Positions 263-3,696 of a stretch of DNA of 6,078 nt are shown here, piece by piece. A program made the translations under genes and the position numbers. The DNA is from Nitrospirota bacterium. GTDB taxonomy: Bacteria > Nitrospirota > UBA9217. The DNA lies in the NCBI GenBank assembly GCA_017885365.1, contig JAFNGD010000218.1:6928-13005 (forward strand), in the 5' to 3' direction. Each line of letters starts with the position of its first letter. Within the stretch, counting starts at the first letter, position 1. The notes below the pieces were generated by a model. That model was not told where the DNA came from. It worked only from the letters and a program-made list of their open reading frames with translations, and searched no databases.

Positions 263-898
263 TTAAAATCCGGATTGCGCGTTCAGGAAAGGATTGTCGC
301 GCCGTTCCTCGCCGATGGTGGACTGCGGGCCGTGGCCGGAGAGCACGACCGTATCGTCCGGGAGGGTCATGAGGTGTTCCTTAATGGAGGTGATGAGCGT
401 CATGAGGTCGCCGCCCATGAGATCGGTCCTGCCGATGGACCCGGCGAAGAGCGCATCTCCGGTGAACACTACGCCGTCGCCCACGAGGCTAATGCCGCCC
501 GCCGAGTGGCCGGGCGTATGCAGGACCGTGAACGACAGGCCCCCGACCGTCAGTACGTCGCCATGCTTCACGTACCGGTCCGCTTTCGGGGACGAAGCAG
601 CGGTCATGCCGAACATCCGGGCCTGGTTCGCACTTCCGCCCAGCAGGACATTGTCCGCCTCATGAATCAGCAGCTCGGCGCCCGTGGCGTCCCTGATCAG
701 CTTGTTCGCGCCCACGTGGTCGAAATGGGCATGGGTGTTGACGATATACTTGACCTTGAGGCCCTTGCTCTTGACCAGCCCCAGGATCTCCTGGCCGTCG
801 TCGCCGGGATCGATGACCATGGCCTCCGTGGTCTTTTCGTCGTACACGATGTAGCAGTTCACCTGCAGCGGCCCGACGACCAGTCTTGATAATTGCAT
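263..898 (-). CDS. Metallo-beta-lactamase-fold hydrolase, glyoxalase II-like
   Basis: A 211-residue cytoplasmic protein of the compact glyoxalase II-like branch (YcbL type) of the metallo-beta-lactamase fold. These are binuclear metal thioesterases or related hydrolases; the substrate cannot be read from the sequence. Visible metal ligands are THAHFDH at residues 55-61 (His56, His58, Asp60, His61), His131 in TPGHS, Asp148 in FTGDALF, and His189 in LSGHGP. The start MQLSRLVVGPLQVNCYIV is typical of the family. The frame stays open 45 codons further upstream, but that stretch is unlike the family and would overlap the alkyltransferase gene, so the ATG at 896-898 is used; GGAAG lies roughly 13 bases before it, so the ribosome binding site is weak. 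At 211 residues it lacks the longer C-terminal substrate-binding domain of classical hydroxyacylglutathione hydrolases, so glutathione specificity should not be assumed. It lies 103 bases after the alkyltransferase stop on the same strand and may be cotranscribed with it. Confidence 0.9.
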   Translation of the reverse strand: MQLSRLVVGPLQVNCYIVYDEKTTEAMVIDPGDDGQEILGLVKSKGLKVKYIVNTHAHFDHVGANKLIRDATGAELLIHEADNVLLGGSANQARMFGMTAASSPKADRYVKHGDVLTVGGLSFTVLHTPGHSAGGISLVGDGVVFTGDALFAGSIGRTDLMGGDLMTLITSIKEHLMTLPDDTVVLSGHGPQSTIGEERRDNPFLNAQSGF

Positions 899-1001: not shown

Positions 1002-1535
1002 CTAGCCTTTGCGGCGGCCTTTGTCTTTAGCACGTGTTTCCAGTTCGAGCAGCTTCTTTTTCATCCCCAGCCCACCCGAGAACCCGCCCAGCGAACCTGC
1101 TGAGCTGATGACCCGGTGTCAGGGGATCAGGATCGGGACCGGGTTCGCACCCATCGCCTGACCGACCGCCCGGGCCGCTTTCGGTCTTCCGATCCGCTTC
1201 GCGATCCAGGCATAGCTCCGTGTTTCTCCGTAAGGGATCGATGCTGCTGCCTTCCAGACCGCCCGCTGGAAGGGCGTATAATAACCTAGGTCGAGCGGCA
1301 GGTCAAATGATACGCGTCTTCCTGAAAAGTACTGTTGTACGAGCTTTACCGTGCTTTTGATCTCACGGTCAGTTGATCGCGATGCTGCTGCCTTCGACAA
1401 TTCGCCTTTCACCTTTGCCAGCTCACTCCTGACGGTCTTCCGAGATCCCCGGGGGAGAACGATCCTGCATATCCCCTTTTCATAAAAACCTGCTCCAGCC
1501 CATCCGAGCGGAGTGGAGAATATAGTCTTTTTCAT
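1002..1535 (-). CDS. ogt: O6-alkylguanine-DNA alkyltransferase with selenocysteine (TGA) at the active site
   Basis: Family role: this protein removes alkyl groups from O6-alkylguanine in DNA by irreversible transfer to one active-site residue, a single-turnover repair. Seen in the sequence: 177 residues if the TGA at 1119-1121 is read as amino acid 139. Residues 1-80 form a variable N-terminal domain and about 87-166 the DNA-binding and active-site domain: FQRAVWKAAASIPYGETRSY, then ARAVGQAMGANPVPILIP (120-138), then TGA, then HRVISSAGSLGGFSGGL. The family has PCHR here, so the TGA replaces precisely the acceptor cysteine. The flanking functional residues remain: Tyr108, the Arg122 finger, Asn131, His140 and probably Glu166. 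After the TGA the frame runs 38 codons with no lesion, matches the family, and ends at TAG (1002-1004) with a basic tail. The ATG at 1533-1535 is chosen because GGAGG lies 8 bases upstream and MKKTIFSTPLG is a family-like start. murJ ends 46 bases upstream, so they are probably cotranscribed. A SECIS-like hairpin follows the TGA. Alternatives are a fresh nonsense mutation or a sequence error at one base. Confidence 0.86.
1082..1109 (-). promoter_or_regulatory. Bacterial selenocysteine insertion (SECIS) hairpin in the alkyltransferase mRNA
   Basis: Downstream of the in-frame UGA the mRNA can fold into a 7-bp upper stem. The 5' arm GCUCAGC (1105-1099) pairs with GCUGGGC (1092-1086), with one U-G wobble. 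The stem closes a six-base loop, AGGUUC (1098-1093). Below an A-G mismatch, three more pairs extend it (1107-1109 with 1082-1084). Twenty bases separate the UGA from the loop. The published bacterial SECIS consensus expects roughly 16-37 bases, a small loop, and a G in the first two loop positions; all are met. The E. coli fdhF loop is AGGUCU, and the shared GGU contains the bases contacted by the elongation factor SelB. The codons forming the upper arm and loop (TCA, GCA, GGT) are three in a row ending in A or T, between flanking codons ending in G or C. This suggests selection on RNA as well as protein. The fold was made by hand and not scored thermodynamically. Confidence 0.82.
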
Positions 1536-1564: not shown

Positions 1565-1612
1565 GTCCCTTTGTCCCCATGTCACTGTGTCTCCCCGTCA
1601 CCGCGTCGGCCT
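1565..1612. repeat. Degenerate 8-bp tandem repeat (minus-strand units ending in GAC) across the murJ stop
   Basis: Six consecutive octamers are in exact 8-base phase. On the plus strand each begins with GTC (1565, 1573, 1581, 1589, 1597, 1605). Minus-strand units include GGGGAGAC, ATGGGGAC and AAAGGGAC. The array encodes the last residues of murJ, contains its TGA stop (1582-1584) and extends into the gap before the alkyltransferase gene. It looks like a short GA-rich quasi-repeat of the kind scattered between genes in some genomes. No function is evident. Confidence 0.7.
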
Positions 1613-3174
1613 TTTCGCCTCACCATCCCCCACAGGAATGTAAGTTCCTCGCTCCTCATCGCCCACATGGCGACGACATAGAACAGCACGCTGACCGCCA
1701 TGGCACCGCCCAGCCATTGAATCTTGATGAGTGTATTCCCCGGACTCTCCCACAGAGGATTGCGGGCCACCCACCAGCCGATAATACCCATGACCACGGA
1801 CGCAGGGACGATCTTCGCGAGCGATAGTGCTATCCTCCTGCCGTCTATGCGGCCGATCTTCTTCCGTAGCCGCCTGGTGAGCAGGGTGATGTTCAGGGCC
1901 GCCGCCAAGGAATTTGCCAGCGCTAGCCCCCCGTGCTGCAGAGGGGTCTGGATGAGCACCACGCTTAGCAAGATGTTAGCAGCCAGGGCCAGCAGGGCGA
2001 TCCTGACCGGCGTCCTCGTGTCCTGGAGCGAATAAAACGCCTGGGACACGATGCGGACGCCGGCGAAAGCCCAGAGCCCCACGGCATAATAAAGCATCGC
2101 GGCCGAGACGCCGAGGGTCGAGACGCGGTTGAACTCGCCATGCTCCAGCAGAAGGTTGATGATCGGGACGCGAAGCATGATGAGCCCGGCCATGGCCGGG
2201 AACATGATGAAGAATACCAGGCGGATGCCGAGTGACAGGGTCTCTCTGAACTGTTCCATCTCCTGCTTTGCAGCCTGGGCGGACAGCGTGGGCAGAACGG
2301 CGGTCGCGATGGCGACGCCGAAGATCCCGAGCGGGAAATGGATGAACCGCATGCCATAGAACAGGAAGGTGATGCTGCCCGTGGCGAGGAACGACGCCAG
2401 GATGGTGCTGATGAAGATGTTCAACTGGGTCACCGAGGAGCTGATGAAGACCGGCAGCGCCAGGGAGCCGATCTTCTTGACGCCGGGATGGCTTGGCGAG
2501 AACCGGGGCGTGAGCATCATTCCCTGCCGCTTGAGGCCGGGGAGCTGGATGAGGAACTGGAAGAGCCCGCCGAGCACCACACCGACGGCCGCGCCCATGA
2601 TGGGCTCGGGCATGCGCGGCGAGAGCAGCACCACGGACCCGATGGTCATCACGTTCAGCATGACCGGTGAAAGCGCCGGGAACAGGAAGGACCGGAGAGA
2701 GTTCAGCATCCCCATGGCCAGCGCGGCCAGGCCGATGAACAGGAGGTACGGGAACATCATCCGCGTGAGCGTCGCCGCCAGCAGGAACTTGTCCCGGTGG
2801 TCCTTGAACTTCCAGCCCCAGGCGATGAGCTTCACGATGTAGGGCGCAAAGATGATGCCGAGGCCCGTGACGATGACGAGGATGACCAGGAGCCGCGCGA
2901 AGACCGCGTTGGCAAGGCGCCGAGCCTCATCCTTCGATCCCTTCGTCAGGGTCTCGGTGAAGACCGGGATGAAGGCCGCGGACATGGACCCCTCGGCCAG
3001 CAGCTCGCGGAGCAGGTTCGGGATGCGGTAGGCAACATAGAACGCATCGGCGGCCGCGGAGGTGCCGAAGGCCCAGGACATCACCATGTCCCGGACATAC
3101 CCCATGATACGGGAGAGGAGCGTCGCCGCCCCCACCACCCCCGCCGCCTTTGCCACTTTTATATTCTCAGACAT
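1582..3174 (-). CDS. murJ: Lipid II flippase MurJ (MviN)
   Basis: MurJ moves lipid II, the peptidoglycan precursor, across the inner membrane; it belongs to the MOP exporter superfamily. The 530-residue product is hydrophobic throughout, consistent with the family's 14 transmembrane helices. The N-terminal signature is clear: LLSRIMGYVRDMVMSWAFG at 19-37, then ADAFYVAYRIPNLLRELLAEG at 42-62. Residues known to be essential in E. coli MurJ (Arg18, Arg24, Asp39, Arg52) correspond here to Arg22, Arg28, Asp43 and Arg56. The central LPVFISSSVTQLNIFISTILASFL and FHFPLGIFGVAIATAVLP-like segments are also typical. The start MSENIKVAKAAGVVGAATLLSR aligns with the family, though no strong ribosome binding site precedes it. 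The last dozen residues (RRKGRRGDGETQ) form a charged tail encoded by the octamer repeat and are probably not functional. It is divergent from rpsT and heads the run murJ-alkyltransferase-hydrolase. Confidence 0.97.
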   Translation of the reverse strand: MSENIKVAKAAGVVGAATLLSRIMGYVRDMVMSWAFGTSAAADAFYVAYRIPNLLRELLAEGSMSAAFIPVFTETLTKGSKDEARRLANAVFARLLVILVIVTGLGIIFAPYIVKLIAWGWKFKDHRDKFLLAATLTRMMFPYLLFIGLAALAMGMLNSLRSFLFPALSPVMLNVMTIGSVVLLSPRMPEPIMGAAVGVVLGGLFQFLIQLPGLKRQGMMLTPRFSPSHPGVKKIGSLALPVFISSSVTQLNIFISTILASFLATGSITFLFYGMRFIHFPLGIFGVAIATAVLPTLSAQAAKQEMEQFRETLSLGIRLVFFIMFPAMAGLIMLRVPIINLLLEHGEFNRVSTLGVSAAMLYYAVGLWAFAGVRIVSQAFYSLQDTRTPVRIALLALAANILLSVVLIQTPLQHGGLALANSLAAALNITLLTRRLRKKIGRIDGRRIALSLAKIVPASVVMGIIGWWVARNPLWESPGNTLIKIQWLGGAMAVSVLFYVVAMWAMRSEELTFLWGMVRRKGRRGDGETQ

Positions 3175-3426: not shown

Positions 3427-3696
3427 GTGGCATCACACAAGTCCGCGATCAAGAGGCAAAAGCAGACCCTGAAGAAGCAGGAGAGGAACAAGTCCGTACG
3501 GTCCATGCTCAAGACCCTGGCAAAGAAGGTCGAGCTGGCCGTCGAGGCGAAGAGCGCAGATTCCGCGAAGGTCGCGCTGGTCAAGGCCATGAAGGCCTAT
3601 GACAAGGCTGCCTCGGCCGGCATCATCCACCGGACAACCGCTTCCCGCAAGATATCCCGCCTGTCCACGAAGGTCGGCAAGATCGGCGCAGCGTAG
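3427..3696 (+). CDS. rpsT: 30S ribosomal protein S20
   Basis: S20 is a small, basic, helical protein that binds 16S rRNA early in assembly of the 30S subunit. The 89-residue product has the family's opening, MASHKSAIKRQKQTLKKQERN, and the C-terminal signature IIHRTTASRKISRLSTKV, with abundant Lys and Arg throughout. E. coli S20 is 87 residues, so the length is normal. The start codon is GTG (3427-3429), supported by AAGGAGG (3414-3420) six bases upstream. It is the only plus-strand gene here and is a single-gene unit: its own promoter (3364-3392) precedes it and a strong hairpin terminator (3729-3765) follows it. It diverges from murJ and converges on holA. Confidence 0.98.
   Translation: MASHKSAIKRQKQTLKKQERNKSVRSMLKTLAKKVELAVEAKSADSAKVALVKAMKAYDKAASAGIIHRTTASRKISRLSTKVGKIGAA

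Follow-up and report, generated by a model that had tools for sequence, protein, structure and literature searches.

A predicted selenocysteine form of the MGMT/Ogt DNA-repair alkyltransferase in Nitrospirota

The stretch of DNA analyzed here (the window, 6,078 nucleotides) harbors a gene of the MGMT/Ogt family of DNA-repair alkyltransferases in which a UGA codon occupies the position of the methyl-accepting cysteine. This UGA is very likely decoded as selenocysteine (Sec), and the predicted hairpin behind it is likely a SECIS signal for SelB and tRNA-Sec. The proposal of a selenoprotein member of this family, made in an earlier note on the same DNA, is supported by the conservation of the TGA, by selection on the frame beyond it, by the SECIS-like hairpin and by the Sec machinery of related genomes. 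Known MGMT proteins transfer the alkyl group from O6-alkylguanine to their own cysteine, once. By analogy, the UGA at codon 139 would be read as Sec by SelB and tRNA-Sec with the hairpin as signal, and the selenolate would accept the alkyl group of O6-alkylguanine in the same single-turnover manner.

The Sec form of the family is itself already known as a prediction, which answers the question of the earlier note whether such forms are catalogued. We take the protein ABB14497.1 to be that of Carboxydothermus hydrogenoformans. It is given as the example of a Sec MGMT entry in tables of reviews from 2022 and 2026 (PMC9312934, PMC13188914), and the 2006 table of Carboxydothermus hydrogenoformans selenoproteins does not contain it (PMC1794560). 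A table of the Global Ocean Sampling data from 2008 holds one sequence of a Sec methylated-DNA-protein-cysteine methyltransferase (PMC2398784), and a Sec form of the family is also named in PMC7435645. These entries share with the gene of the window the Sec predicted in Pfam domain PF01035. Judged by the tables, which hold one sequence or example each, the Nitrospirota lineage differs in its many members and its exchange of Sec and Cys. Added here are this sizeable lineage, a second group with a different hairpin, and what appears to be repeated Sec/Cys exchange among syntenic orthologues. Deng et al. surveyed more than 44,000 groundwater genomes, and their study, cited in PMC13188914, may already hold members of the lineage. 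Among the open papers listed for Sec alkyltransferases and for Nitrospirae or groundwater selenoproteins, none was recognized as a study of a natural Sec alkyltransferase.

The gene and its acceptor codon

The reading frame reported in the earlier note, with the TGA at the acceptor codon, was recovered unchanged (Table 1); it lies on the minus strand, a detail absent from the note. With a cysteine placed at the TGA, the readthrough product matched PF01035 over residues 88-167 with 121.4 bits (cut-off 27) and TIGR00589 with 117.5 bits (cut-off 46.4). The window protein sequence also matched solved MGMT structures, with a best E-value of 1.9e-32. The acceptor motif PCHR reads P-UGA-H-R, which holds a nucleophile only if the UGA encodes Sec. 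The other active-site residues that had been described as intact, Y108, R122, N131 and H140, are all present, as is E166. Their roles were assigned by human numbering, and those beyond the equivalents of human N137, H146 and E172 are presumed. These three human residues are discussed in PMC4150793. The same study describes human AGT with an engineered Sec at position 145, which likewise carries Sec at the acceptor and is active in E. coli. It shields the cells from MNNG, whereas the Ser form fails, and works even with the N137A change that inactivates the Cys form (PMC4150793). Unlike the gene of the window, however, this protein is artificial and is made via UAG and EF-Tu without a SECIS (PMC4150793). 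Cys-type Ogt, Ada-C and MGMT proteins share the domain and the active-site residues and include syntenic orthologues within the clade, but carry TGC or TGT at the acceptor, where the window gene has TGA plus the SECIS-like hairpin.

An Rfam search of the window yielded four matches with E-values of 0.7 to 5, none of them at the MGMT gene. A fold of the Cys relative P0005 calculated without an alignment reached a mean pLDDT of 41.6, and the model was discarded. Between the minus-strand genes for murJ and DNA polymerase III delta lies a small plus-strand gene (3427-3696), which we take to resemble that of ribosomal protein S20; the same layout occurs in L001.

Table 1. Features of the MGMT locus in the window
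Feature	Position	Strand	Remarks
Predicted Sec-MGMT/Ogt gene, 177 codons	1002..1535	-	ATG 1535-1533, TAG 1004-1002; neighbours retained in relatives
In-frame TGA, codon 139, methyl-acceptor position; predicted Sec	1119..1121	-	Same codon is TGA in relatives
Coding part past the TGA, 38 codons	1005..1118	-	Purifying selection among the compared relatives
Possible ribosome-binding site GGGAGGAA	1542..1549	-	6 bases ahead of ATG; read from sequence
murJ (lipid II flippase), upstream neighbour	1582..3174	-	Adjoins MGMT in 12/12 clade loci examined
Metallo-beta-lactamase-fold hydrolase, downstream neighbour	263..898	-	Present in 11/12 clade loci, the 12th stops at contig end; open frame 263-1033, start at 898 is our reading
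SECIS-like predicted hairpin	1082..1109	-	Folding, synonymous conservation
Hairpin stems	1105-1099 with 1092-1086; 1109-1107 with 1084-1082		Inner stem of 7 pairs; outer 3 pairs
Hairpin apical loop AGGUUC	1098-1093	-	

Conservation of the TGA and of the frame beyond it

The earlier note held that a random nonsense mutation would hardly strike this very codon, and named the acceptor codon of relatives and a database search with the 177-residue product as checks. The results of both agree with its view. In a scan of one genome per species (84,980 species), the acceptor codon of the best 80 of 82 relatives was TGA in six and a Cys codon (TGC or TGT) in 74. The six TGA loci belong to five Nitrospirota and one member of the Desulfobacteraceae (L050). 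Within the phylum of the L001 genome, a relative was found in 371 of 395 genomes, and the matches listed included 11 TGA-bearing rows, nine with the TGA at the acceptor and two with it past the domain. In the latter two, G050 and G009, the acceptor is Cys, and they were not counted as Sec forms. The same TGA is thus present in at least nine other genomes of the phylum: G001-G005, assigned to Nitrospirota/Nitrospirae, and the further genomes G043, G059, G074 and G077. A viral scan matched 30 stretches, none of which encodes a relative.

The protein database returned 7778 matches. Among the 120 listed, 55 carry PCHR and 65 stop exactly before the acceptor; P0004 and P0036, the two of these 65 for which the stop codon was read in the DNA, are the products of the window itself and of G001. 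Dozens of database proteins are cut before the active site, and some are named methyltransferase though the stored sequence is without the acceptor residue.

Selection on the frame was assessed by dN/dS pooled over the 45 pairs of the ten TGA sequences. Values were 0.138 over 52 codons before the TGA and 0.130 over 24 codons after it, and 0.074 for codons +13 to +25. The closest pair (window and G001) is less clear-cut, with pN 0.178 and pS 0.363 over 34 codons after the TGA and pN 0.100 and pS 0.329 before it. Further stops downstream, which would have pointed to a pseudogene, do not occur within the domain in any of the ten sequences. This pattern indicates that the stretch past the TGA is translated, and it bears out the earlier description of the 38 codons as conserved and open to the TAG.

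These data also bear on two other explanations. The first is a gene broken at codon 139, be it by nonsense mutation, as a pseudogene or through an assembly error. Standard gene calling does stop at 138 residues, and the exact locus of the window is represented by one assembly. However, the TGA recurs at the same codon in nine other genomes of the phylum, the 65 shortened database proteins end at the same point, and the frame beyond is under selection and free of further stops in the domain. We regard a broken gene as very improbable, given the strong counter-evidence of a conserved TGA and of selection on the codons behind it. The second is a functional product of 138 residues, for example with a DNA-binding or regulatory role, whose remainder is untranslated. 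The databases store just this shortened form, but the dN/dS of codons +13 to +25 is not expected of an untranslated stretch, and the domain would be deprived of H140, its GGFSGG stretch and E166. Such a product is hardly credible as an explanation of the locus.

The hairpin and the selenocysteine machinery

Selenoprotein genes are recognized by an in-frame UGA that aligns with the Cys of homologues and is followed by a conserved frame, as found here, and by a stem-loop right after the UGA with a conserved G in the loop. The latter is present according to structure prediction and sequence conservation. All seven pairs of the inner stem are retained in nine of ten Sec forms and six of the seven in the tenth. 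The three Cys sisters retain seven (G006), five (G081) and three (G054) pairs; in the Cys outgroup (n=21) no sequence has seven pairs and two have six. The loop context is GCAGGUnCGC in eight of the ten Sec forms and GCCGGGUCGC in the other two. Synonymous positions point in the same direction: in codons +1 to +12 the Sec forms share the same codon in a fraction of 0.752 of comparable pairs, as against 0.508 ahead of the TGA and 0.459 further on, and the corresponding values for the 21 Cys outgroup sequences (L008 left out) are 0.482, 0.460 and 0.412. For four stretches of the window the folding z-scores lie between -1.4 and -2.4, which is modest, and simulation with synonymous codons, run sequence by sequence, gave P values of 0.016 to 0.031 in nine cases and of 0.105 in that of G043. 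Compensatory double changes in the hairpin were looked for, and none were found. The arrangement resembles the SECIS of E. coli fdhF, with a UGA, a predicted stem-loop and a GC-AGGU apex context (GCAGGUCUGC in fdhF). It differs in belonging to another gene and in the distance from the U of the UGA to AGGU, which is 20 nt in fdhF and 23 nt here.

Sec machinery was detected in all nine other Sec-form genomes. SelB over the cut-off was found in eight, tRNA-Sec in eight, both in seven and at least one in every genome; no tRNA-Sec match was obtained in G077, and no SelB match exceeded the cut-off in G043, perhaps due to incomplete assemblies. ARAGORN assigned the anticodon TCA to all seven tRNA-Sec loci tested. 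The three Cys sisters harbor SelB in two cases and tRNA-Sec in all three, and among 20 more distant Cys genomes SelB was found in one and tRNA-Sec in two. Among G001-G006, the five Sec-form genomes and the Cys-form G006, SelD was present in all six and SelA over the cut-off in five, with a fragment in G004. Sec machinery is also present in the genome of L001, a 79%-identical relative of the window, from which we infer that the organism of the window possesses it as well. As side observations, the SelD genes (L103-L108) carry an in-frame TGA in all six Nitrospirota genomes tested, and G006, whose MGMT has Cys, possesses a second tRNA-Sec gene (L095) with anticodon TCA.

Alkyltransferase-like proteins (ATL) have a residue that is not nucleophilic, for example Trp or Ala, in place of the acceptor Cys. 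One of them, 3gva, was among the structures matched. Its existence lends some plausibility to a third explanation, in which the UGA is read by a tRNA that is near-cognate or reassigned (Trp or Gly, for instance), so that the alkyltransferase-like product would lack an acceptor thiol. However, the 74 relatives without TGA all have Cys at this site and none has Trp or Gly; a codon for a non-nucleophile was found neither in the window nor in any of the 80 relatives read. Furthermore, the frame in G001 and G077 terminates at a TGA roughly where the three Cys sisters also terminate at TGA. A global reassignment of TGA therefore appears unlikely. Together with the SECIS-like hairpin and the Sec machinery of the relatives, this leaves insertion of Trp or Gly with a very slight probability, and decoding as Sec remains the preferred reading.

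A second group of Sec forms was found in the phylum of L050, the Desulfobacteraceae genome whose Sec-form MGMT lies at L050 1-400. A relative is present in 356 of 395 genomes of this phylum. Among 30 loci read, a number that leaves out G652, G485 and G534 (each a row with one TGA), the acceptor is TGA in five (L151, L152, L153, L156 and L157, with L151 being L050's own genome) and Cys in 25. In all five, the UGA is followed by a predicted hairpin of another sequence (GCCGCCGGGGG type). SelB was found in all five Sec-form genomes. It is uninformative in this phylum, as all six Cys-form genomes tested also have SelB.

Exchange of Sec and Cys and its meaning

Sec and Cys forms of the Nitrospirota clade appear to be orthologous, because they share the murJ and metallohydrolase neighbours. 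murJ also adjoins MGMT in all three Cys outgroup loci tested, and the L050 locus has neither gene as a neighbour. A quick tree was calculated from 150 rows and 138 columns with the acceptor position excluded; P0004, P0005, P0036 and P0099 were left out as duplicates of the window, G006, G001 and G081, respectively. Built on few columns and with many of its forks open, this tree calls for no fewer than 10 changes between Sec-or-stop and Cys, and well-supported branches force three. Shuffled labels required 50.3 changes on average. The tree suggests that Sec and Cys replaced each other at the acceptor of syntenic orthologues several times. As to direction, we infer that Sec came first and repeatedly gave way to Cys, since distant Sec forms share the hairpin and the Cys form G006 keeps an intact copy of it. 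Loss of the Sec system was rejected as the reason for the Cys of G081, as a tRNA-Sec gene is present in this genome although no SelB was seen. The MGMT gene was the sole match to the query in seven of the nine Sec-form genomes, whose assemblies are possibly incomplete.

For annotation the lineage is a trap, as database entries end ahead of the active site. Selenoproteins whose function is known are mostly redox enzymes (PMC2398784). Redox selenoenzymes can reuse their selenium, whereas a Sec-MGMT with a single turnover would consume it, which raises the question why so costly a residue is kept. Our tentative answer, to which we give slightly less than an even chance, is a suicide repair protein running on selenium and spending one Sec per repaired base. 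It would be a vertically inherited orthologue of the Nitrospirota, often the sole MGMT detected, which switched many times between Sec and Cys at one locus, with the SECIS decaying after the turn to Cys. Sec might be kept because a selenolate needs no activation and resists oxidative loss, and selenium supply or redox conditions might decide the switch. Since closely related orthologues with Sec and with Cys occur in the same gene neighbourhood, the Nitrospirota locus offers a ready natural comparison of the two residues.
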